Positions 1 to 61,595 of a DNA stretch of 64,000 bases are shown in pieces (position 1 is the stretch's first letter; each line of letters opens with the position of its first letter). The notes under the pieces were generated by a model. The model saw nothing but the letters and a program-made list of their open reading frames with translations, made no database searches and was not told the DNA's origin. The translations under genes were made by a program, and so were the position numbers. This DNA comes from Allomyces arbusculus (lineage: Eukaryota; Blastocladiomycota; Blastocladiomycetes; Blastocladiales; Blastocladiaceae). Where the stretch lies: assembly GCA_027604705.1 (NCBI GenBank), contig JADHYV010000006.1, forward strand, positions 434,001-498,000, written 5' to 3'.

Positions 1-1867
1 GTCCGACGAGCCTAAGTCGCTCGCGGACATGGTCGCGGGGACGGCAGCTGTGTCGAAGTTGTTTGGCTTCAAGTCGGATCAGCTCGAGCTCGTGGAAGTC
101 AAAAACGCCCTGAACGACAAGGGTGAGAGAGTCACGGTCGAGTTCATTTTCCTGCCGCAACCGGCGGTGCTGCTGGCACTGAAAAACTCGCATCCGTACG
201 GGTACCTCGACGCACTCTTTGCAATTCTGGGCTTGGCCTACCGCGATAACGGCGCGCTCTACGGCCTGTTTTACGTGACCGAGTACGCTGCCATTTTGTC
301 CCCCTGATCGACGCGCGTGTGCAGACAGAACTCTGTCTCATGTTTGCCACCTCTGTGAAGTTATCAAACCAGCCAAAACGAACTCGCGTTGACCATGTTC
401 GTCGACCAATTCGCGTCGCTGTGCCCAAACCTGACCTACATCATGGCCAACTACGAGCCGCGCACCGTGATCATGGACGGCGGCGCCTACCTCGACGTGC
501 GCCAGCGCATCGCACCCATCCATGCCCTGCTCGATGCGCGCAACGTCACCCTGACGGCGATTCCTGTGACCACGACGCGGCCTCTTGTCGACCGGCCGGC
601 GCGCACGGCCTTCTACTACCAGCAACTCGGCCGGGTCATTGATATTCTCATCGGGTTCAACCGGCTCGATTCGGCCGTCTCGGCGCACACGGCCAAGTTG
701 TCGATGCCGCCCGCGCTGGAAATGTGGACTCCCGTACGCTCTGTTGCCTCCTCCGCCAACAAGAGCTAGCGAGAGTATGCGTGATCTGACGCTGCCGTGT
801 ACCAGCAGGCGCTCTTGGACTTTCTCGACGCCGGGTCCAAACTCTTCAATGAGAAAAGCCAAGGTTATCGGCAGCAGCGCGTCGCGATTGACCAGAGGAT
901 CAAGGAGTTTGACCAGCGCATCGCTAAATGCACAGAGGCGAAGGCCACGGCCGACGCCGCCATTAAGCGGCACGAAACGGTCAAGGTCTACGTGCCCGGC
1001 CTCATGGTCGTGGTCGTTGGCATCACGTCCGTGGCCGTAAACCATTTTGGCCCCGTCGTCACAGTCTTGGCCGTGTGCATGCTCGCGGCTGGCACGATTG
1101 GGCTCATGCAGGTGAGCGAGAGAAAGGCGCAGCAGCTGAAAGCCACGCGCGACAAGGCCGAGAAGCAGTTGCCCGAGTTGGCAACCGAGAAGAGCAAGGT
1201 TGGTGGTATGCTCCCGGAGGTGGCGGTTAAGATCAAGGCTGTTGCCAACTGGCAGGCTATGCTCGAACTCGTGCGCAACGCGTGTCCGACGGGCAAGGAC
1301 GTGTCAGTCGCAGCGCTGATCCCGTTGCGCAAGCCGCTCATCAGTCTCTGTTCTCGAGCGGCATCGGATTCGCCCACGCTCAACGAGGACTTGGCCGACC
1401 TTGCCATGGCGTTCCTCGGCACCACGGGCGATGACGCGAAACGGGTGCGCTCTTTCCTGTACTCGCTCGCCACACAGCTCAGGCAATCACGGGCCGAGAG
1501 CTCAAGCAGCGCGGCAGTGCAGCGCGAGCTGGCTGTCGAGCCACTCACGGAAGAGCCGCCCGAACCGGCCGCTGCACGTCCGGTCGGCAAGATCGTTGCG
1601 ATGCCGGTCATCCTCAGGCCAGGGAATGACGTGCCGAAGATCGAGGAAGCGCGTCAAGGCCCTCCGGTACCCGACGCTGACTATTTGGGCGTCACATTCG
1701 AGGAGATTATGAGCGAGCACGACCATGGACTGGTGATACCAGAGTTGCCTCCTCCTCTCCTGGTGATGCCAGGGTTGCCTCCTCCCCTGGAATTGGTCGA
1801 ACCGGGTCCTGTGGATCGGGCGGCCAAGCTGTCTCATCAAAGTCAGGAGGCCGACGAGTTGCTCTGA
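1..1867 (+). CDS. AIG1/GIMAP-like P-loop family protein with coiled-coil/membrane tail (5' end cut by window)
   Basis: Proposed exons <1..282, 373..733 and 806..1867. Introns have GTACGC donors and AG acceptors and all phases agree. The P-loop lies before the window. What remains aligns by eye with the intact relative at 28.5-30.3 kb: the strand pattern after G3, a hydrophobic strand ending in LFYV, then a helical block with the motif FYYQQL. The first intron has the same position and phase (2) as in that relative. The G3-like site reads LPQP, not DxPG, so GTP hydrolysis may be lost. The third exon encodes a helical region with two adjoining hydrophobic stretches (about 988-1110) flanked by charged, coiled-coil-like helices. 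The tail is Pro/Glu-rich and holds an imperfect 30-bp tandem repeat (PELPPPLLVM / PGLPPPLELV). A membrane-anchored GTPase-like protein is the best guess; substrate and role are unknown. Confidence 0.6.
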
Positions 1868-13233: not shown

Positions 13234-16200
13234 ATGCTCGGCGCACCGAACCGCCGGCCGGCGCGGACCCGCGCACCCGCGCAGCCGCAAGCGCGCGCCG
13301 GCGTGAAAATCTGCTACAACTTCCAGAACACGGGTTCTTGCAAGCGGGGCAACAACTGCCCCTTTGACCACATTGGCGGTCCGCGCAATGATGGTCGCGC
13401 GCCGTCGCCCACGGCGCGGTCGGCCGCGTCGTCGTCGTCTTCGTCTTCGTCTTCTGCTGCGACACGGACCCTGGGCGGCCGCGACAATGACCGGTGGAAG
13501 TCGCGCACACGTACGTTGTTTTTTGATTGCAGCGTGGGGTGCGTGGATGGTAGTGGTGATGCAGATACTGATGGTGTTTGGAAATCGCGACGGTAGAGTG
13601 TCCGTATTTCTTCAAGGACGGCTCGTGCCGCGACGGTGACCAATGCCCGTTCTCGCACGGCGACGACGACGACTTGGCCGTCGAAAAGGGTATGGATGCA
13701 ACACATCAACTGCTGCTGGATGGACGTAACTGACAACTTGTTACTTTTTAGTCCAGCTCATCTGCCCGCGCATAGCCAAGGGTCTGCCATGCGTTTTTGG
13801 CGCCAAGTGCCGCTTCTCGCACGACCTGAGCACCATGGCGTCGTCTTCCTCATCGTCCTCTTCCCCCTCACCGGCCGACGCGACCCGCGCTCTCCGCACC
13901 AGGGTCGAGACCGCGCTCACCTCGTCGGCGCTGACCATGTCCATCGACTCGCTCTACATCCACCAACAAGTGACGGGCATGCCTGAGGCCGACAAGGTGC
14001 TCGACGACCCGCGCATCCACTTGCCAACCACGCGACTCAACGAACGCGCCGTTACCAAAGTCCTTGCCGCGTGCCACGCGTCCCTGCGCGACCGGTCGCC
14101 CACGTTCGTTACGAAAATCGCGCACCGCGACCCGTTACTCGCGCTCATCCGCACGCTCGTCGCCTGGCCCACCTACAGCTTGGCCGCGGGCATGCCGCCG
14201 CGGTACGAATCGCAGCCGGGGTCCGAAATTCTCTCGTTCCAGCGCGTCCTGCTCCCGCTGCTGTATGTGCTCGCGCACACGAGCATTGAGACGTCGACAC
14301 AGCGGCACCCGGCGAACCAGCTGTACAATACGGTCCCCGATGCGATCGACGAGCTGTTGCTCAATGTGATCACGTGCGTGCAGGACGCGCTCGATTCGAA
14401 CGGTGCCGACCTCGCGGACCGCGGGTTTACGGGTGCCGTCAATGACCCGCGCGCGTTCGTGCCCGTCTCGCTCGCGCAAGTCTTTGCGCCGCTGGTCCAA
14501 GTGCTCGACACGACGTTCAAGCGGTTCCCGTCCGTCACGATGAGGCCGCTCGTGCAGCAGGCGTGTAAAGCGATGGATGGGCTGTTAAATGACTGGGCCG
14601 CACGGGTCAACGCGAAGACACTGGCCACGGTCGAGTCCCCGTTTGCCGTCGAGGTCGTCATGGGCCGGTGGCGCCGCGCGCAGCGTAACCTGCACACGGA
14701 GCAGCCATCGCTCGCCGACATGCTCGAGTCGCGGCGGCAACAGGTGATTGCACACGAGCGCACGCGCGCCGCACGCGGTACAACCGCCGAGTCGGCCGGC
14801 GGGGACGAGTGGCCCGACGACCAGCTTCGCGCCCCGTCGGGCGCGCACGACAACGATCCCGCTGTCTACACGAAAGTCGCAATTATTCCGACGATGCAGG
14901 AAATCATGTCCCCCGAGGTGCCCACGTTGCCTGGCAATCTGCAGTGGCACCCGTACGCGCACTGGCTCGATCCGGGCGCATTGCGTCTGCTGGACACGCA
15001 TTTCCGGCTCCTCCGGCAAGACATGCTCGCGAGTTTGAAAACCGGACTGCGCTTGTTCCTCGAGGCGGTCTCGACGAAACCGGAAGTCGCGAGCGACCGG
15101 TTCCGCCGCCGCCAGGGCGCAAATCAGGTGGACTTGATGGTCTATGTCGGCGTGGACGTCGGCGGAGTCGATTTTCACCAACACGCCGGCGTGTGCGTGG
15201 ATGTGTCGTTCATCTTACCGCGCCGCGCGTTGAGCGGGGCGATGCGTGCCAAGTTCTGGGACAATTGTCTCCGGCGCGACGCGCTGGTCGCGCTGATCTG
15301 GCCCGTGTCGACAGCGCACGCGGATTACCCGTACAAGGTGATTTTCGCGACCGTCGCGGAAGCCGACGACAAGCAGCAGCCGACTGACCAGGGGGTTGTG
15401 CGGATCAAGGTCGGGTTTGGCGGGCGCGACCTGGACGCGGGGCTGTTTGACCGCGACGTGAGCCGGCCGGCGTACATGGTCGAGGCGCGCACGCTCATGT
15501 TCGAGGCCTACCGGCCGGTGCTCCGCGCGTTGCAGGAAAAGGTCCCCGCGGACCTGCCGTTTGCCGAGATTTTGTGCCCGCCGACGGCGCCCACGGAGGA
15601 GGTGGTGCATGTCGCGGTGCCGATGTTTGCGCGGACTCCCGGGATGCGGTTCGATTTGAGCTACTTGGTCGCGGACGGCACCGACATGGGATTGGCGCCG
15701 CCGCTGTACTTGTCCCCGACGACCATCGGCGACTCGGAGCGCGTTGCGGCCGAGTTGGTCCTGCGGTCGACGCTCGACGCGTCGCAGGCGCGCGCGCTCG
15801 TCGGCGCACTGTCGAGCGAAGTCTGCTGTATCCAGGGCCCGCCGGGTACGGGCAAATCGTTCATTGGCGTCAAGTACGTCGAGGCGCTCTACAAGCTCGG
15901 CGACTCCACGATCTTCCCGGTCCTGGTCCTGTGTTATACGAACCACGCGCTCGACCAGTTTCTTGAAGCCCTCTTGGATCATGGGATCAAGTCCATCGTG
16001 CGCGTCGGCAGCAAGCCGTCGGACCGGTTGCGCGAGTACACGCCCAACTTGTGGCGCGACCGCGGGATGGTCGCGGCGATCAAGCAGAAGGAGGAGGCGC
16101 TCAAGGAAGTCGGCGAGGAACTCAAGGGCTTGCTCGCGGGCGGTGGGGTCTCGGATTTCACGTCGCGCGCGGCGTGGGTGGCTATGGAGCAGGAGTTCCC

Positions 16201-19200
16201 ACATATCACTCGCATGATTCGCGAAAAGGGGATTGCCTGGGAAGTTAAGGGCAGCTGGGCGCGGTTCTGGCTCGAGGGGCGCGATTTGAACGAGTGGCGC
16301 ACGGTGACCGGCGGCGGGAAAAAGAGCAAGGGCAAGAGCAAGGCCAAGACCGCGGCGGCGGCGGCCGCGGGTATCGCGGCGCTGCAGCGCGTCCAGCCGC
16401 CGCCGGCGCAGCCGCAGGCTACGGGCAAGTCGCGCAAGGGCCGGAATAAGGTCGAAACGGTCGCTGACGATATGGCGCGGCTCGCGCTGGGAGGTGCGGC
16501 CGTTGACGACGTGCTCGATGACGACCCGGCCTACAGCGGCGCCGACGTGCTCGCCGCGTACGGAATCGGCTTGGACGAGGAAGAGCCCGAGCAAGTGCCG
16601 GCGGCCGCGCACGATCCGGACGCGTGGGTTACGTTGATCGATAACCCACACGCGTCGAGGTACACGGTCTGGGATTTGGACGTCGCGCAGCGCACGCAGC
16701 TTGCAGATTACCTGACGACGTGTTTGCGCGACGTGCATGCCCAGCACGTCGACCGGCTGCAGCGCACGGCGCGAACGCTCGCCGCGCAGATTAACGAGAT
16801 GCGGTCGGCGTGCAAGGTCGAGGCGATGCGGCAAAAGAAGATCATTGGGATGACGACCACGGGCGCGGCCAAGTTCCAGGACACGCTGCGCGCGCTCGCG
16901 CCGAAAGTGCTTTTGTGCGAGGAGGCCGGCGAAGTGCTCGAAGCGCACGTGCTCGCCGCTCTGTCGCCGTCGGTCCAGCAGCTCGTCTTGATTGGCGACC
17001 ACAAACAGTTGCGCCCAAGCACGACCGAGTTTGGGTTGCGGATGGAGTCGCGCGAGGGCGCGCGGTACCGGCTCGACGTGTCGATGTTTGAGCGGCTCGT
17101 CAAGGAAAACAAGTTGCCGGCGTACACGCTCACGGCGCAGCGGCGCATGAAGCCGATCATTGCCCAGTTTGTGCGCCGCACGATTTACCCGGAACTGACG
17201 GATGGGCAAGGGACCGACGGGCGCGAGCGCGTGCGTGGTGTGGAAAAGGACGTGTTTTTTGTTGCGCACACGAACCCGCAGGATGGGGGGTCGCAGGAGG
17301 CGTTTGCGGCCGCGGCGTCGCACTCGAATGCGTTTGAGGTTGAGATGATTGTCGCGCTCGTGCAGTACCTGCTGCGGCAAGGGTACTGCACCGATCAGCT
17401 CGTCGTGCTCACCCCGTATGTCGGCCAGCTGCTCAAGATCCGCACGGCGCTCGCGAAATTAAACCACTTGACGGTGCTCAGCGAGCGCGACGAGCAGTTG
17501 CTGCTGCTGAATGCCGATGAGGACGACGTGCTCGATGTCGCATCCAGCAGCGGTGCCAACGGTGGCGGCGGCGCGGGCAAGAAAGTGGCCATCAAGGAAG
17601 AAAACCTGCGGCAGTGCATCCGCGTCTCGTCGATCGACAACTACCAGGGCGAGGAATCCGACTTTGTCCTGATCTCGCTCGTGCGTAGCACGTTGCCCAA
17701 GGGCGTCGACGCCGGGATCGGGTTCCTGAAGACGGAGAACCGCGTCAACGTCATGCTCTCGCGCGCGCGGCTCGGCATGTACCTCGTGGGGAATGCCGAC
17801 ATGATGCGCAAGCACTCGCCGATGTGGACCAAGGTGCTCGCGCTCATGGAAAAGCAGGAACTGGTCGGGCCGGCGCTGCCGCTTTATTGCCAGCAGCATC
17901 CGGACGACGTGCGGTGGGCGGCCACGCCCGACGAGTTGCGGCGGTGTTCGCCCGATGGCGGCTGCTTGCGGCCGTGCGAGGGCCGGTTGCCGTGCGGCCA
18001 CGCGTGCGAGCGCAGCTGCCACGCCGACGACCGCGAGCATGTCCTCGTCAAGTGCACCAAGGACTGCGCCCGCGTGCACGACGGGTGCGGCCACCCGTGC
18101 CAAAAGGTCTGCCACGAGCCGTGTGGCCAATGCACCGAGCGCGTCGATCCGGTCGTCCTGCCCGGATGCGGCCACACGTACTCAGCGCCGCGGTGCTACG
18201 AAATGGCCAATCTCGCATCGGTGCGGTGCACGACCAAGGTCACGAAACGCCGTTTCTGCGGACACTCGATGCAAGTGGCCTGCGGCGACGACGTCGATGC
18301 GCGCGCGTGCCCGCAAGTGTGCGGGGACCTGCTGTCCTGCGGGCACAACTGCGCGAGCAACTGCGGCGCGTGTAAGCCGCGTCCCGCAGCCAAGTCAGAC
18401 CCGGTCGTCGCTAGTCACGCGCCGTGCAAGCGTGCGTGCGGCCGCACGTTTGCGTGCAAACATACGTGCCCCGTCACTTGCTCGACGCACCCGGAGAATG
18501 GGTGCCCGCCGTGTGCCGCGTCGTGCGACGCGACCGCGTGCGACCACGGGCGGTGCCGCGGGATATGCAGCGACGCGTGCGTGCCGTGTATCGAGCCGTG
18601 CACGTGGAAGCCCTGTGCGCACGTCAAGGAATCGTGCCCATTACCGTGCGGCGCGCCATGTGTCCGCGTTCCGTGCGACGTGCGGTGTGAGGAATTGCTC
18701 GAGTGTGGCCATCAGTGCCCGTCGGTGTGCGGCGAGACGTGCCCGCCGAAGAGCTACTGCCGCGAGTGTTGCAGCGATGCGCGCATCACGGACCAGCTCG
18801 TGGATCTGATCATGGGCGAGACGTATGCTGAGGTCGATTTGGACGCGACGCCTGTCATCAAGCTCGGGTGTGGGCACATCTGTACGGTCGAGACGCTTGA
18901 CGGCTACCTGTTCCTCGAAAAGTACTACCGCAAGCTCGGGTCGCAGTGGGTCGGCGTCAAGGACATTGTCCACCCGGAAGACGGGCTCGAGGTGGCCAAA
19001 TTGCCGACTTGCCCGCAGTGCCGTGCACCGATTCTCGCCAGTGTCACCAAGCGGTACGGTCGCGTCATCAAGGCGGCGGCGCTGACGGTCACAGAAAAGC
19101 ACTTCCACTTGCAGATGCTGCGCCAGTGCGCCGCGGTCCTCGTGGAGCTCGACAAGTTTGGAGACCTCGCGCAGCGGCCGTTGCCCACGGCGCCCGAGAT

Positions 19201-20233
19201 TCTCGACGCGCGTGCGCCCAACATGCTCGTTCGCGCACAGCGCGAACGCGAGGCGGAACGCGCGGCTGCGATCAAAGCGCTGTCGAACGGGTGGCGGCTC
19301 GCGTTGAACGCGGTCAAGAAGTACCGCAATGCGATCCGCACCGACCCGGTCCGCGCGCTGCACGGCGCCGGCGCCCGTGCTGTGGCACTCCTCCGTGAGG
19401 CAAATCCGGGTTTGCGCGCCGAGTTTGACCGGACCATGGCCGTGACACAAGACTTTGTCGAGGACGGCCGCATGCAGTTTATCGAGGCGCGGCTTGCGCG
19501 GCACCGGCTCGCCATGGATCATAAACTCGGCAAGTCGATTGCTGATCTGCAGAGCGGGATGCAGCGGGCGCGCGACCACCTGAGCAACGCAATTGCACGG
19601 TTCGTGCAGGGGGACGCGCGGTTCCGTGTCCTCGAAGCGCGCGTCGAGCTGTTGGCCGTCTACAAGTTGTTTATCGGTGCGGCACTCGATGCGCGTCGCG
19701 ATGCCAAGGTGTTCCGCGTGCTCGAGGTCGAGGACCAGGAAAAGTTCATTGCCGCGGTGCTCGAGCACATCAACGCGGCGTGTTCCGCGGCTGACGAGGC
19801 GTTGCGCGCGGCGCGCGGCATGCAGGCGGACGGGAACGAGGATGCGGGGACGCATATTGCCTCGGTCGTGCAATACGTCGAGTACTTTGCCGAGGCGCGC
19901 GACGCGGTCCGCACAGGCGTCTCCCCGCGTGACTACGAGATTGCACAAGTCATCATGGCCGTGGCAGCGACCGAGGGCACGACAGGCCACTGGTACCGGT
20001 GCCCGAACGGCCACATGTATGTCATTGGCAACTGTGGCATGGCCATGGAGACCGCGCGGTGTAACGAGTGCGGCGCCCGGATTGGTGGTGGGTCGCACCA
20101 ACTGCTAACGACAAACCAGCACGCGGACGAGATCATTTTGAACGCGCAACAGGCGACGCGGGATGAGCAGGCGGCGAGGGCGCCAGAGGCGCGGGGAATT
20201 GCGGCGCGCGTGTTTGGTAGGTTGTTTGGATAG
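13234..20233 (+). CDS. ZNFX1/NFX1-type SF1 RNA helicase with three N-terminal CCCH fingers and a C-terminal RZ finger
   Basis: Proposed exons 13234..13510, 13597..13689 and 13752..20233, 2283 aa, phases consistent. Three C-x8-C-x5-C-x3-H fingers lie near residues 27-46, 94-113 and 128-147; each is the core of one exon or exon start. The Upf1-like helicase core has GPPGTGKS (about 819), TNHALDQF, a Walker B variant LLCEEAGE (about 1178), GDHKQLRP, TAQRRM, DNYQGEE and NVMLSRAR. A basic, low-complexity insert lies between motifs Ia and II. Residues about 1520-1795 are a Cys/His-rich array of NF-X1 fingers. Near 2204 is an RZ-type finger (WYRCPNGHMY, ending CNECGARIGG), as in ZNFX1 and RNF213. 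ZNFX1 relatives act in small-RNA inheritance, heterochromatin and antiviral RNA sensing. A role in RNA silencing is likely here, by family only. Confidence 0.93.
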
Positions 20234-28549: not shown

Positions 28550-30341
28550 TCAAGATTGGTGGGCCATGTTGAAGATCTGTAAACAGAAGCAGTGTCAGCA
28601 TATCACAACGGGAGAACCAGCGTCCGAGTGTGGACCAACATACATCCGGGCAATCCTGGTCAACAGCGACCCTGAGATACTTCATCCATGTCCGTCCCGT
28701 CGTTTCGCTCGTGACGCGCGCCAGGATCTCATTTGCGCCATCATACCACAGCTCCAGCAAAAACGACGGCATCGCCACGGCACCCGGATCAAACGCATCG
28801 ATCTTGATTTTTCCCACCAGGTTGCATTCGCTTACGCCCAGCAGTCGCATAGTCGCTGGGGAGGTGGTCGATGCGTAGATGGAGACGGTCATGAAAGGCT
28901 GCATTGCGGCGCGTGGGTAGAGTCCCTGGCGCTTGAAGATGACGCCGTTGGGCGGCACGGGCTCTCGCTCGATGACCACGCAGTAGACGGACGTGTTGGC
29001 TTCGGCCATGGCCTTGGTGTTATCGAACCCGGTCGTGTCGTCCCATGCAGCGTTTGTGGGATCAAAGCCATCGCGCACTCCGATGCCGATTGTGTAGGTC
29101 GCGCGGTCCTGGAAAGGGAAAGCGGGGAGGAAAAAAGTGAGAAAAGAACAATGCGATCTCATGACCGAATCATGTTTGGGGTGTCGGACGGACCTGAATC
29201 ACAGGATACAAGACTGGTGCATCAATAGCACGAAGCAGGTGCGCAGGCGACGAGGGCATGTGTATCGGCACGCTGTCCGACCGAACCGGCTTCCACTGCA
29301 ACGGTGGACGGCGCGAATATGGGATTGAGCGCGCTGAGAAAAACGCTAGGTCCGACTCCAAGGCACCAATCGACCGGACCGTGGTCTTTGATGCGATCGT
29401 GCTGAAACCCAGCACGTCGGTGAGCAACTTTTGCATCACTTGCAAAAACTGGGCGAGCTGCTGGAAGCAGAAAGCCGTCTGGGTTGGGTAGGCATGCTCG
29501 GGTTGAGGCAACTTGTTGTTCATGGCAACATGAATCGTCATCAAGTTGTCGGCAAACGATTGCGCGTGCAACCACTCGTCATACGCGGAAATGTGGTCGG
29601 AGATATCGAGGTACGGCCGGGCGTGTTCGACGGCGAGGTGCGGGATGTAGTGCGAGTGCACGACAATAACGTACTTGCAGTCCAGCGACAGGGGTGACAG
29701 ATACGACGTGAGTGGGTCGAGCAGTTCAGACGTTAGCGGAACGGGCTCCCTACACTCACAGTGTCAGATCGGTCGCCCATTGTGACTTGGAGTACCAACA
29801 AATGAGAAATGTACTTGACAACCACAACGACTGCATGGGCGCCGCCAATGCCGTCAACTTTGGCAAGCACGTCGTCCACTTTTCGCTGGTGATCCGGATC
29901 CGGATTGTTGGCCGAAAACAGTACTCCTGGCGCATCAATAATCTCGAGACAGATGCGCTGCCGCCCAGGCTTGGCAGTCGGCGCGGGCGCCAACGTGAAC
30001 CGTCCAGGTGGTGGGTCCAACACGTCGAGCAGTGCACAAGACAGGTCCTCGCTCGTCATTTCGACGGTCTTTTCAGCAACATCAATCCAATGAGCGAGTG
30101 GGTGCGGTGGGCTGCAGTTGCGCACCAGCCCGTCTTTCTGCAGCGTCGCAGAATCAATATGGAGCCGATGCAATTCAGCATGCTGCGTGCAAGGGCTGAT
30201 CCCGTTCCCAACAATTAGTGGCTTCAGGGGTCGATAATCATTGTCTTGGTCGGCGAGAAATTGGATGAGCTGAGTCTTGCCGGCCTGCACAGGGCCGATC
30301 AGCACAAGTCGTGCAGCAGGAACGCTGCAGTCAGCAGTCAT
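28550..30341 (-). CDS. AIG1-like GTPase fused to an Hsp70-type substrate-binding domain
   Basis: Proposed CDS complement(28550..28576, 28644..29108, 29194..29749, 29815..30341), 524 aa. All introns are GT-AG, 65-85 nt, and phases close with no internal stop. Residues 10-175 form a P-loop GTPase head: GPVQAGKT (16-23), then IDAPG (136-139) and a GGAHAVVVVVK strand, the layout of AIG1/GIMAP proteins. Residues about 176-361 are helical and hold the family motif TAFCFQQL. Residues about 362-516 resemble the beta-sandwich of Hsp70/HSPA12-type proteins: YTIGIGV, YCVVIEREPVPP, MTVSIYAS, LVGKIKIDAFDPG and ARVTSETTG. The Hsp70 ATPase domain is not present; the phrase before the junction (APVLYPVIQ) faintly recalls its end. 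A nucleotide-switched, client-binding protein is conceivable. Function unknown. Confidence 0.75.
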
Positions 30342-35175: not shown

Positions 35176-35760
35176 TTAAGTTGTATTGGCACCATCGATC
35201 CGAAACGACAAGATGGCAAACTCTAGAAGAAATCTAGGCAGCCGAGCACGCGCAAGCATCCCGCCTGCACGCACCAATTCATCACACTGAACCTGCACAT
35301 AATTGGCCGGGAACATGCTCAAATGGCCTTTACACTGGCCGACCCACCACTGGTTCTGCGAGGAACCGCGTTTCAGAACCGTGATCGGGTCACCCTTGCG
35401 GAACGGTAAATCACCAGGCTGTTGCGCGTCAGAATCAAACAGTGCCAATGCCGTAACCGGTCGCGTCGCACTAGGCGATTCAGCAGGAGCAGCCATGGAC
35501 GGCGACGAGGGTGGGGGCGATCGCGCAGCAGCTATGTAGTTGGACAGGAACCAACCCACATGGTCGTTGCACTGGCCAAGCCCCCCACTGGTCGTCCTTG
35601 TCCTTGCCCCGCTTCATAAATTACAATTATGTCCTTTGCGGAACGGCAGGTCGCCCGGCTTCTGCGCGTCGAAATCAAATATGGCCACGCCCATGTCCAG
35701 CCGCGTCGGAAGCGTGCCATCATCCAAGACCACAACCTTGTTAGGGTTCGCCGGAATTAC
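35176..35760 (-). pseudogene. Tandem SH3-domain fragment, probably broken
   Basis: Reading the minus strand, one complete SH3 domain is clear: ALFDSDAQQPGDLPFRKGD, then NQWWVGQCKGHLSMFPANYVQ (about 35290-35440). Just upstream is a second SH3 whose opening (IFDFDAQKPGDLPFRKG) and closing (GQCNDHVGWFLSNYIA) parts lie in different frames, so the first domain is frameshifted. The two domains share about 15 identical residues in their first halves and arose by internal duplication. A Pro/Ser/Ala linker joins them. The fragment lies about 250 bp downstream of, and on the same strand as, a broken GTPase copy, so it may have been its tail; no continuous frame proves this. An alternative is an independent SH3 adaptor gene in decay. 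Confidence 0.6.
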
Positions 35761-35999: not shown

Positions 36000-36530
36000 C
36001 CTGAGCACCATTACCCCAGCGTACACGCCGCCCACGTCGTGCACCTCGGAAAGCACATTATCCAAGGCCTTCTTGTGCATCCCCTTGCTCTCATTCATGG
36101 TGCCAGGAGTATCGATAAATTCAAGGAGCGCACGCTGCGTCGAATCATTGTCCGTGTCGGTGTCCCGTGCAAGCAAAAACCGTCCAGGTGGCGGGTCAAG
36201 GACGTCGAGCAACAATTGAGTACAGTCCTCGCGTCATTTCCGCCATCTTCTTGGCCGCATCGATCCGGTGGTGCAACGTGTGTGGAGGGCTGTTTCCCCG
36301 CACGGCATGCGCGTGTTGGTTCAAACAAGTTCGATCGACAGGAACGCGATGCAGGACAACTTCGGTAGTACACGGATTAAATCCATCGCCAATGTTCGTG
36401 GGCTCAAGCGGCACAAAATTGGCAGCTTGATTGGCAAGGAACTTGATTAACTGTGTCATGCCAGCCTGGGCTGGGCCAAAGACGACAAGTCGCACGACTG
36501 GGATGGGACCCACATCGGCTATCGTCATGA
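36000..36530 (-). pseudogene. Broken AIG1-like GTPase copy with altered P-loop
   Basis: The minus strand from about 36530 reads VVRLVVFGPAQAGMTQLIKFLANQ and continues with clear similarity to the intact gene at 28.5-30.3 kb, to LLDVLDPPPGRF and FIDTPG. Two defects are visible. The P-loop Lys is Met (GPAQAGMT). A short deletion after AEMT, relative to the intact copy, shifts the frame within the head domain. No helical middle region follows in frame. It is a paralogue that has lost nucleotide binding and probably coding capacity. Confidence 0.75.
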
Positions 36531-36899: not shown

Positions 36900-38765
36900 T
36901 TAATGCAAGGAACGGATGCTGTGTAAAAGTGTGGTGTAAGTGAGTGCAGGTCGCATTGCTTGTTATTTATCTGCTGGGCGATGGCGTGGATGAGATCGCG
37001 CCTTGCGCAATTTTTGGACATCACGATCTTCACAAAAGTGTTGGTAGATGGGTGGAACGTTATGATTTTGAGAAATGGCACTGACGTGCCAACCATAGTC
37101 CTCTAGAACTGTACGATGGCCACCAACCACAATCTTAAAGACCACAATGGCCAAGTTTCCAGACAACCGCGCTTGGATCAGCTATGTCGTCAACCTTGCC
37201 TGCTCAGAACCATAGACAGGGACGCGGCGAGGAATCAGCTGAGCGCCAAGCGTGAATGTGAACAACAATTCTTCAGTTACTCCACCATAGTCGCATGCAC
37301 GCCCATGCGCCTCGACAGCAAATTCAGGGCGGCTGACAGGCGAGGTCAGGGCATACCCATCACAGTACTGTGGCAATAGGGGCAGGAACCCAACGAATAT
37401 CTGTGCACCAATCAAAGCAAGGGAAGCTTGTACATTGTGATGCAACCTGTGGGTTAACTTGTCGTTGGCACTGATGACCACAACAGCAGTTAGAGGAAGC
37501 AATCAAAAATCGCCTCAGCAAGTCTCTTTGAACACACAGCACCTTCAGAATGTGTGTCAAAGGCAGCCATTGTCACAGCTTCCTGCAATGTTGGCTTGGC
37601 AGTATCAATGGCGACCACATTGAGCCACATGAGGCAACTGACATGCATGTGGTTTGGTCAATGATGGTGACAGACGTGTGGCGCCCTGCAGACAATGCGA
37701 AATTGCCTGCAGAACGCGCTTTGAGCTTGACAATCATCCACCAGTTGGCAGGTCATGGAAAGAAGTTGGCCACCAACACTTTCAACTTACACCTTTACAG
37801 GTGCAAGTTGAAATGATGGGACTACCTTGTCGAGTTTGCTCACCAAAAGCGAAGATGGAGCCAAATAGGTCGTAAGAACTGGCCCATTCAAGGAGCCAAA
37901 AGCGTTTCAATGTGTGGATAGAACCATGCTCATGACTGACATGCCCATCAGCTGCATAAAGTCAATGAACGCATTGAGCTGCTGGTAGTAAAAGGCAGTT
38001 TGCACCGGATAGTCCCTTGCCCAATGCAGCAACTTGTTATGACAATACGCGTTGTCAGTGTTTGCCCACCATTGAGCTGCCCCCTGGAGCCAAGTATTGA
38101 ACACTGCACTGTAGTCTGTCAATCAAGGTGTGGCCGCCCAGCCTCCACAGGTACAGTCGGAATGTAATGCGAGGGAAGACAACGATGCGCTTGCAGTGTT
38201 GCAAAAACGGCGCCATGTAAAGAGCAAACAGATCAAGAATCAAACGTGTCAGTGCGGCTGCCTACACAAGGGTAAGAATGCACTCTGTGCGCGAAAACCA
38301 TCAAGGAGATTGAATTGCAATAAAACGAACTTGAGGACAACCACAATGGCATGGACACCACCAATGGCATGCACCATGGCCTTGATGACAGCAACTGTTT
38401 GCTCAAGGTTTGGGTCTTGCTCCAAAGTCACATTTTGCACGCCTGGCATGTTGATGAGCTCAAGAACAACTGGCTGACGACTGGGCTTATCAGAAATCAG
38501 TGGAGCAAGCGAAAAATGGAGTGTGTGGCAAGCTGCCATTGCAAACCATCTGGTGGATCTTGTGGAGTAGCAGGGTCAATATGAAGCTGGTGCAAAACAG
38601 TACTTGTTGTGCACAAGCCAGTATCGTTTTCAACACATGTGGCACGAGTGGGAGAAAGTGAGGGTCCTGGTTGGCAAGCAACTTGATGAGCTGTGTTTTG
38701 CCAGCCTAGGTGGGGCCAAGTAGGAAGAGTCGTGCAGCTTGGATTGAGTTGGTGGTCATCTTTCA
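36900..38765 (-). pseudogene. CpG-depleted, decayed copy of the GTPase/Hsp70-tail gene
   Basis: From about 38760 the minus strand reads AARLFLLGPT-stop-AGKTQLIKLLANQD: a TAG interrupts the P-loop where the intact copy has CAG. Further on, in changing frames, come ELINMPG and GGVHAIVVVLK (about 38330-38480), CKRIVVFPRITF (about 38190) and TAFYYQQLNAFIDFMQ (about 37960). These match the GTPase head and helical middle of the intact gene in order. At 37180-37500 and 36900-37170, phrases such as LLFTFTLGAQLIPRRVPV and LSGNLAIVVFKI resemble the Hsp70-type sandwich of the intact gene, though weakly. Several frame breaks and stops make it non-functional. CpG is strikingly rare here while TpG and CpA abound. 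Confidence 0.7.
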
Positions 38766-59193: not shown

Positions 59194-60299
59194 CGAGGTC
59201 AGGATTCATGTCGACTTCGAGGGTCGTTCGACGGGGGCCCACCCACCGTGTACGGACAGAATCGAGCGACACGGGCACAATCGAAGGCCGTTGGGGCGAC
59301 GACCGAGGTCCTGTGGCTGCATCGTCGGCGGGTCAGCAAATAGTTGGGAACGGTATAACAGTTTTCGCCACGCAAAGCAGCCGGGGAGCGTGAAGGTCAA
59401 CGTGCTGCTGGTTTTCCGGCCCTGCTAGTTGGCCGTTGCTGCAGCCAGTGCCCAGCGTCGTCGATGCAGGGCGGTGAGGTCGGGGCAGGTCCAGACCGCT
59501 GCGTGTCTGCAGCAGGTTAGGGCCTCGTTCCGGTTGGGCGCGATTTCGGCGAGGGTGGATGGACCGCAGGATCGAATTGTCGAAGTGAGGAGGGCACGCG
59601 GCAGCTCGCGAGGGTCGCGAACGAGCCGAAGCGGGGTGATCAAGGCGTCTTTCGCGTGGGAATGGGCGTGGCATGTGACCGTGTCATTCGCACGTGCTGC
59701 ACCGCACCAGCCAGCGCGATCGCCGCTGCGCCACCCCACAGAGCAACGCAGCACCTCCAATCTCCCACCGAGCCAAACAGCACAGCGACAAAGTCAAGCT
59801 TGTCGGCGGTCACGACTCTTGATGAACCGCTGCCGCTGCGTGCTTTCGTTGTTCGCTGTCGCGCCGTTGATCACCATGGTTGACCCTGGCGCTGCAACCG
59901 TGTTCTCCTCCCCATCCCCACAGCGCTCCTGCTGCTCTCCTGCCCGCCAAACTCAACGGGACGCAAACCGCTGCATCTAGCAACAGCTGCTAACCGCGAG
60001 AACAATCTGGAGCTCGACCCGCCGCGTTCGCGACCGACCCCACGACGCGACCCAGCTCCGCATCCCGCCGACGCGACCAGCAATCAATTCTCCGGCTCCA
60101 GCGCGCGTGCCAGAGCTTGTCACGATCTACTAGCTCAGCCCGCGACGGTGACTGATTGGACGTGACGCTGAACGGTTGATCGCGGCAGTCGCGGCGTGGG
60201 GTCTGCTCCACCCTTGCTGCTCCCGCGAAAAGGGCGGCGTACTCTCTCCCTGCCCGACAACCTGCCTCTTTGCGCTTGTGTTCTCGACCAATATTGGCC
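59194..60299. other. Intergenic region between divergent genes
   Basis: Several overlapping open frames on both strands, all of irregular Arg/Ser-rich composition typical of GC-rich non-coding DNA. No gene called. Confidence 0.4.
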
Positions 60300-61595
60300 A
60301 TGACGGCCTCGGCAACAACAGCAACACCACCGTCGGCGCGCCGCTCGTCGACGTCGGCGGCTCTGGCGGCCGGATCATGGCGTCGGTGGTCGTGGTACCC
60401 GCGCGCGGCACGTCCCAACCACGACGACGCCCACGATGACGATGACGACAGCACCGAACACGCACACGCCGCCATGATTGCCTCCGTCAAGCGGCGCCAC
60501 CCGACAATAACCAGTTCGGCGCCCGCATCCCCTTCAGCACTGTCAATCCGCTCCACGTCCTCGTCCACGACTACGCGTGCTGGCGCTGGCGTGCAGCACC
60601 TCGTCTACCCCGCGCCGCCGCTCCCACCACCTGCACCGATCGTCCAGCCGAACCGTCGCCGCCCGATGTTGCTGATTATGGGCGCCGAAGGCATGGGCAA
60701 GTCGACCTTGGCCGTCCGTATCGCATCTCCCGGACGCGCAACTACCACGAGCCCAATCCCGCCACCGGATACGGCCACGCCGTACCTGGGCCACCCCAAT
60801 CTGCACGTCGTCGGACCAGCACGCACGCTCGTTGCTGACGTGCCGCTGTCAGCGCTCGCAGGTCCCTGCGGACCCGATTCAGTTCTTGCGCGCGCGCTCC
60901 GCACGCACCGCGCAGGCGTCCGCGTCGTGATCGCAACCACGCTCGAGCGCGACGGTCGCGTCGCACACGTACCTGACATTCGTGCGGCTCTCGCTGGGCT
61001 CGCACGCGTTCTGCATCGCGCGCCACCTGTCATGCCGCGACCAAGGTCACGACTTGCGCTGGCTGCCGCATCGGCCGCACTCGATAGTGATGGGGATGCG
61101 GACGACGACGCGCCGCGATCGTTGCGGCAGCGTGTCCAGGCCGGATGGATGCGGTGGCTCGGTGGACCGGGCCGTGGTAAGGGGCACGCGCCAGCGGCAG
61201 AGCCGTCCGACGATGGGTGGGAGTGGATGTTGCTGATCAACCGTGTGCCTGCGGCAGTGCTCGAGGCATGTCGGCAGCGGTCGCTGGACGGGGAGGAGTT
61301 TTGGGACGTGATTCATGCGCGTACGTTGTTCTTGCGTTCTTGCTTCCTAATTCGCCCCGGTTCTGACCCTCTTCACTCTGAATTTCCAGACGACCTCTAC
61401 ACGCCCGAGTGCATGGTGATCAGCGAGGACCAGCCGGGCCACGGCACGGCGTGGGCCGACCACCATGCGCCCAACATCGAGAGCATGGTGCATCGCGTGC
61501 ACCCGGTCCGCGAACCTGTGCGGTTGGGCAAGTGGGTGCACCATGCGGCCGAGGCGACCGTCGGGACGCTGCGGCGCGGTAGTAGTAAGGTGTAG
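60300..61595 (+). CDS. P-loop NTPase-like protein, uncharacterised
   Basis: Start chosen at 60300, the first ATG of the frame; 60474 is an alternative. Residues 1-120 are low-complexity with an Asp/His-rich patch. A Walker A motif, MGAEGMGKST, lies in LLIMGAEGMGKSTLAVRIA near residue 125. A strand VVIATTLERD and helices follow, but no clear DxxG, NKxD or Walker B Asp pair is visible. The C-terminal part has ordered phrases (EWMLLINRVPAAVLEAC, TPECMVISEDQ). A 69-nt stretch, 61321-61389, has a GTACGT donor and a TTTCCAG acceptor and is a multiple of three without a stop, so it can be spliced or kept without changing frame. Spliced, the protein is about 408 aa. No family recognised; a distant relation to the AIG1-like family here is not supported. 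Confidence 0.6.
   Translation: MTASATTATPPSARRSSTSAALAAGSWRRWSWYPRAARPNHDDAHDDDDDSTEHAHAAMIASVKRRHPTITSSAPASPSALSIRSTSSSTTTRAGAGVQHLVYPAPPLPPPAPIVQPNRRRPMLLIMGAEGMGKSTLAVRIASPGRATTTSPIPPPDTATPYLGHPNLHVVGPARTLVADVPLSALAGPCGPDSVLARALRTHRAGVRVVIATTLERDGRVAHVPDIRAALAGLARVLHRAPPVMPRPRSRLALAAASAALDSDGDADDDAPRSLRQRVQAGWMRWLGGPGRGKGHAPAAEPSDDGWEWMLLINRVPAAVLEACRQRSLDGEEFWDVIHARTLFLRSCFLIRPGSDPLHSEFPDDLYTPECMVISEDQPGHGTAWADHHAPNIESMVHRVHPVREPVRLGKWVHHAAEATVGTLRRGSSKV

Follow-up and report, generated by a model that had tools for sequence, protein, structure and literature searches.

A GTPase-like gene of Allomyces arbusculus that probably ends in an HSPA12-type substrate-binding domain

In Hsp70-type chaperones, client binding is as a rule coupled to an actin-fold ATPase motor. 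A gene on the minus strand of Allomyces arbusculus contig JADHYV010000006.1 (assembly GCA_027604705.1) raises the question of whether a substrate-binding domain of this type can instead lie behind a GTPase-like module in one and the same protein. The gene (30341-28550) lies within a stretch of 64,000 nucleotides (contig positions 434,001 to 498,000, forward strand), here called the window, in whose numbering all coordinates are given. The initial annotation, made from the letters alone, had read the locus as one apparently intact gene in which a TRAFAC-type GTPase head, likened to AIG1/GIMAP, has replaced or stands in for the ATPase of an Hsp70. What has to be settled is whether the locus is a single gene, what its two halves are, and whether their union is a one-off replacement or a case of something more general.

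Results

Four minus-strand exons make up the sequence-based gene model, and their spliced product is 524 aa followed by a stop. The features, in the direction of transcription, are:

29815..30341, minus strand: exon 1, which encodes residues 1-175 and ends two bases into codon 176, with G1 GPVQAGKT (residues 16-23) and G3 DAPG (residues 136-139)
29750..29814, minus strand: intron 1, 65 nt, phase 2, GT-AG
29194..29749, minus strand: exon 2, the GTPase-like module continued as far as about residue 335 and including SHYIP (residues 208-212), then a linker ending in APVLYPVIQ
29109..29193, minus strand: intron 2, 85 nt, phase 0, GT-AG, donor CAG/GTCCGT, with an in-frame stop on retention
28644..29108, minus strand: exon 3, phase 0-0, residues 362-516, probable HSPA12/Hsp70-type substrate-binding beta-sandwich
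28577..28643, minus strand: intron 3, 67 nt, phase 0, GT-AG, with a branch-like site GCTGAC
28550..28576, minus strand: exon 4, final 8 codons and stop

The introns are of phases 2, 0 and 0, which makes exon 3 (residues 362-516) symmetric, and their short lengths are in keeping with a fungal gene. The four GT-AG exons with matching phases and the 524 aa without a stop, as first described for this locus, were reproduced, and the motifs quoted with them (GPVQAGKT, IDAPG, YTIGIGV, EREPVPP, MTVSIYAS and LVGKIKID) are present in the translation. A first-order Markov model with matched composition gives a probability of approximately 3e-7 that 524 codons stay open; the gene model and the open frame together back the description of the locus as one apparently intact gene. 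By codon usage the called frame is the best of six for exons 2 and 3, whereas in exon 1 it is narrowly outscored by a reverse frame (-0.110 vs -0.118 for the called frame). Exon 4 comprises only 8 codons, and the sandwich-like domain is not followed by a helical lid.

The two halves of the protein meet at intron 2, and the locus could accordingly be read as a pair of neighbouring transcripts, or as a model wrongly joined, with a 368-aa GTPase-like gene ending in intron 2 and a separate Hsp70-like remnant beyond it. If intron 2 is retained, translation runs through VRPTPQT and then stops, 7 codons past residue 361, and this in-frame stop makes a GTPase-only product of 368 aa possible. The donor is odd at +3/+4, where C/C is unusual, and the reading frame of exon 3 extends upstream across the intron without a stop. 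However, the exon side of the donor is good and G/T is found at +5/+6, the acceptor (CAG) is preceded by a long and strong pyrimidine tract, the phase matches at 0, and there is coding signal on either side of the intron. A distant plus-strand relative, described below, likewise has a phase-0 intron ahead of its tail exon. In addition, a full-length HSPA12 profile run over the ORFs of the window found no ATPase part, its best hit (E 0.31) being a short unrelated ORF. We therefore regard two transcripts as quite unlikely and treat the locus as a single spliced gene.

The head of this gene, about residues 1-335, has part of the signature of a GTPase. A motif scan of the translation placed G1 GPVQAGKT at residue 16 and G3 DAPG at residue 136, but the G4 motif that gives TRAFAC GTPases their guanine specificity, [NT]KxD, has no match across all 524 residues, which leaves GTP specificity of the head without support. 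Roughly at the expected G4 position sits SHYIP (residue 208), which is retained in one reading frame of a paralogue in the window (paralogue B, below), and the aligned place in the plus-strand relative reads NYEP. Of the GTPase head as originally proposed, the P-loop and the DAPG motif stand, and both are also expected of AIG1/GIMAP GTPases. Membership in AIG1/GIMAP, proposed at the same time, was not borne out, because [NT]KxD is missing and the AIG1 profile (Pfam PF04548) left every query without a row at E<=10, namely the complete protein, residues 1-333, each of exons 1 and 2, and four clean pieces of the paralogues, an absence qualified by the HMMER filters, which discard most rows above about 0.1.

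Neither half of the protein has a match above the curated cut-offs in Pfam, NCBIfam or PADLOC. For the head, the sub-threshold rows include P-loop families (PduV-EutP in Pfam at 0.019-0.089 and EutP in NCBIfam at 0.01). Searching the PDB with phmmer returned no match to the protein at E<=10. A profile built from exon 1 and the four paralogue pieces gave weak PDB matches (E 0.05-1.5), led by the small GTPase Rho6 at E 0.046; Rnd3, Arl3 and a septin came lower down amid chance matches such as latrophilin and midasin. The AlphaFold model of exon 1, made with the four window paralogue pieces, had a pLDDT of 34.1, and Foldseek of this low-confidence model gave no GTPase among the 50 matches listed. 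Judged by its sequence, the head is GTPase-like, a predicted P-loop NTPase that we do not place in AIG1/GIMAP.

The second half is left unnamed by the databases: residues 362-516 drew no name from Pfam, NCBIfam, PADLOC or the PDB sequence search, and the protein has no HSP70 row in Pfam that would indicate the actin-fold ATPase. Approximate query sequences for human HSPA12A/B led to HSPA12-like genes in cyanobacteria, and an HMM of nine of their C-terminal domains was used as the test profile. Residues 321-524 obtain 6.1 bits with it (E 4.7e-4 for a single comparison), a score reached by none of 5000 shuffles, and the score for exon 3 alone is reached by 2 of 5000; residues 1-361, as a control, score -2.2 bits. 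Decoys came from 613 ORFs of the fetched loci (some of which overlap), with 117 Hsp70-related ORFs removed. None of the 295 non-Hsp70 ORFs that gave a score with this HMM reaches that of the query, and once the two approximate human sequences are included, 1 decoy of the 289 scored does better than the query. When 1226 window ORFs are compared with the HSPA12 profile, the exon 3 ORF comes first, yet at E 1.2, with an unrelated short match next at 1.5.

Profile-profile comparison pointed the same way. Against an alignment of eight of the nine cyanobacterial rows plus the approximate human HSPA12A, hhalign found 131 collinear columns over residues 363-507 (20% identity, P 0.025, own Prob 1.9%), and the exon 2 control gave 20 columns (P 0.21, Prob 0.3%). 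When the approximate human HSPA12A was used on its own, 17 of 5000 shuffles did as well or better under one gap cost and 81 of 5000 under another. For a profile of the canonical Hsp70 substrate-binding domain, the score was reached by 55 of 2000 shuffles and by 18 of 288 scored decoys, and hhalign against canonical Hsp70 covered 68 columns (P 0.035, Prob 1.5%). Weak scores are to be expected for exon 3, given that even a PDB search with the HSPA12-like domains finds DnaK at no better than E 0.29. Residues 362-516 would on this evidence be related by sequence to HSPA12-type domains, a relationship that is statistically modest. By eye, the APVLYPVIQ that closes exon 2 could pass for the end of an Hsp70 ATPase or for the interdomain linker; the HMM alignment starts downstream of it, and hence this identity is not claimed.

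AlphaFold, run on exon 3 as a single sequence, gave a model with a pLDDT of 37.9 and four strands of at least 3 residues, which span residues 458-506. Hsp70 structures are part of the AlphaFold training data. Foldseek of this low-confidence model returned 477 PDB matches (E<=10, with all E-values at least 0.47), and Hsp70/DnaK chains account for 34 of the best 50, including rank 1; most of the 34 are substrate-binding-domain constructs, and many repeat DnaK entries. Among the matches listed, all with a probability of at least 0.7 are Hsp70/DnaK, and the best other is a legume lectin at 0.63. The equally poor exon 1 model, searched as a control, gave no Hsp70 chains in the 50 matches listed and no probability above 0.15. 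Structure prediction with fold search, put forward at the outset for both halves, placed Hsp70/DnaK first for exon 3 on a low-confidence model and recovered no GTPase fold from the equally poor model of exon 1. The HMM evidence comes mainly from residues 362-466 and the fold evidence mainly from residues 458-506, so the two complement each other.

These numbers have to be weighed against another all-beta domain, in which the likeness to Hsp70 would be a convergent strand pattern combined with short motifs. Such a domain would fit the silence of Pfam on exon 3, the non-significant result with the canonical Hsp70 profile, the poor AlphaFold model, the high Foldseek E-values and the low hhalign Prob. 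However, HMM, hhalign and Foldseek agree on HSPA12/Hsp70 while their controls are negative, and scores of this size are what the distance between HSPA12-like domains and DnaK leads one to expect. We consider a different all-beta domain unlikely. The evidence by which the chaperone-like part is recognised is weak but mutually consistent, and residues 362-516 probably form an HSPA12-type Hsp70 substrate-binding sandwich, in line with the original assignment of the last part of the protein.

Whether the union of the two halves is unique can be judged from the surroundings of the gene. With the protein as tblastn query, three relatives of the GTPase module were found within the window, given here together with a reading frame next to one of them:

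36000..36528, minus strand: paralogue A of the GTPase head, a pseudogene with its frame broken near 36231 and a stop soon after 36000
35290..35457 (limits approximate), minus strand: reading frame for an SH3 domain, lying downstream of paralogue A, Pfam SH3_1 1.7e-10
37931..38747, minus strand: paralogue B, a pseudogene copy of the GTPase module with several stops
371..1867, plus strand: distant relative, comprising the latter half of the module (about 371-733), a phase-0 intron (734-805) and a tail exon (806-1867)

Exon 1 matches two pieces of paralogue A at 50% and 45% identity (tblastn 7e-34), and the SH3 frame that follows this paralogue hints at a second tail type in the same GTPase-like family. 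In the region of paralogue B (37175-38747, minus strand), the single downstream piece scanned has no Pfam row at E<=1. The plus-strand relative is more distant (tblastn 3e-5; blastp 3e-6 over residues 189-302, with 21% identity), and its upstream part, 2-304, has no match to the query protein, the sequence before position 1 lying outside the window. Its tail exon has coiled-coil-like stretches together with what looks by eye like a membrane hairpin. As the module ends at 733 in this relative and is followed by a phase-0 intron and another tail, the shared module can be set at about residues 1-335, with tails that differ. A separate reading of exon 2 as a decayed Hsp70 ATPase was rejected because a portion of the exon is common to the differently tailed plus-strand relative. 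The tail of that relative also gave rows for Dynamin-like_hel_bact in Pfam (4.7e-5, below cut-off) and LeoBC in PADLOC (1.1e-4), a weak likeness to the helical domains of bacterial dynamin-like proteins that suggests a membrane-acting family member.

Two of the three window relatives are broken, and the fusion gene could in the same way be recently degenerating and functionless, like the two neighbouring pseudogene copies. Against this stand the small chance of 524 open codons, the coding-frame bias in exons 2 and 3, and the concentration of differences at third codon positions. Counted at codon positions 1/2/3 in the tblastn pieces, the gene and its window relatives differ by 33/26/60 in 90 codons, 37/22/41 in 76, 81/68/115 in 169, 32/21/47 in 74 and 58/50/68 in 117, so that the third position is the most divergent in all five pieces, though barely so in the 37/22/41 piece. 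This excess resembles that of sequences long under protein-level selection, and we consider a decaying, functionless fusion improbable.

Since three relatives in the window, not mentioned in the initial annotation, have other tails, a family with swappable tails is likelier than a single event in which the ATPase of an Hsp70 was replaced. Our best explanation, to which we give a probability of roughly 57%, is that the gene belongs to a small, divergent P-loop GTPase-like family in which a shared module is combined with an exchangeable C-terminal module, in this case an HSPA12-type sandwich carried on a phase 0-0 exon.

Relatives were also sought in prokaryotes, viruses and plasmids. Viral contigs contained no relatives of exon 3, of exon 1, of the approximate human HSPA12A/B or of a mixed HSPA12 alignment; a search of plasmid DNA found no relatives, and GTDB contigs held no relative of the whole protein. 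At E<=0.001 the HSPA12 profile matched 1 of 8 prokaryote genomes, over 68 positions only. Genome groups, named here after their centre loci, were then covered at stricter thresholds: no genome matched at E<=1e-12 in the group of a Planctomycetaceae locus (0 of 199) or of a Deltaproteobacteria locus (0 of 198), nor at E<=1e-15 in that of a Bacteroidales locus (0 of 296), these empty group searches being without a positive control. In the group of a cyanobacterial locus, HSPA12-like genes were found in 1 of 194 genomes and then in 10 of 291 (the first one included); they mostly have the ATPase part as well as the sandwich, and nine of the ten genomes gave a usable C-terminal domain. The group of a Rhizobiales locus gave weaker HSPA12 matches (5/398), which end at model position 438-439 of 571.

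The gene has an aquaporin gene (Pfam MIP 1.3e-35) as its left neighbour and an M1 aminopeptidase as its right neighbour. Elsewhere in the window, a single open frame of 2167 codons on the plus strand (13730-20230) encodes a CCCH zinc finger, an AAA_11/AAA_12 helicase and an RZ-type zinc finger, and is reminiscent of ZNFX1/NFX1-type helicases. Another plus-strand open frame (60180-61592) has a P-loop, GAEGMGKST, with AAA/NACHT rows that are all sub-threshold.

Discussion

Modular GTPases with exchangeable tails are known in kind from animal AIG genes; an Hsp70-type tail is a new partner. The AIG family of Biomphalaria glabrata comprises 91 genes with 19 domain architectures, multi-copy and partly in tandem, and the partners named in the available part of that account are coiled coil, TM, death domain/CARD, kinase, ARM fold and Hint (PMC7053062). 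The Allomyces gene resembles this family in its P-loop GTPase module and in having copies with differing extra domains, but Hsp70 is not among the partners named there, and the Allomyces protein has neither a Pfam AIG1 row nor [NT]KxD. A fungal fusion of an AIG1-type GTPase is described for Glomeromycotina, in which AIG1-Hint proteins are strongly expanded; the partner there is Hint, whereas here it is a chaperone-type domain (PMC8778642).

Hsp70 and GTPases have also been reported side by side. In bacterial GTPase-centric conflict systems, TRAFAC-clade GTPases and HSP70 occur in one predicted system, as separate neighbouring genes according to the sections available, and not in one protein as here (PMC7159879). 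Hsp70 and AIG1 families are co-expanded in a nematode and, as noted in the same paper, in oyster (PMC6872716). Among the titles, abstract openings and passages listed by a literature search thin on subscription papers, none describes a GTPase-Hsp70 domain fusion. As for the HSPA12 family itself, the alignment of the probable C-terminal sandwich with HSPA12-like domains covers almost its whole length, and it likewise has no helical lid behind it, but the actin-fold ATPase that lies in front in HSPA12-like proteins, and that was matched in the cyanobacterial ones, is absent.

For the mechanism, the sandwich would capture hydrophobic segments that misfolded or foreign proteins expose, with the GTPase-like module serving as a nucleotide-gated assembly switch. 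Client binding would thereby be coupled to dimerisation or recruitment, which would make the protein a sensor or adaptor and not a folding machine. Nothing in the results spoke for nucleotide hydrolysis in the head as the driver of client binding, and a driving role of the head is something we infer. A stronger version, which we put forward tentatively and hold to be rather doubtful, is that a client-binding domain was split from its actin-fold ATPase and put under a P-loop GTPase switch, with capture gated by GTP-dependent assembly, as one arm of a lineage-specific GTPase family that exchanges its C-terminal exon for a sensor or an effector.

An Hsp70-type tail on a modular GTPase would surprise a chaperone specialist. 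If true, it would mean that a switch other than the usual motor can drive the sandwich, or just carry it, and it would tie recognition of the chaperone type to an architecture like that of AIG/GIMAP proteins, which serves in immunity. With the same head on different tails, the modular family makes this idea testable.
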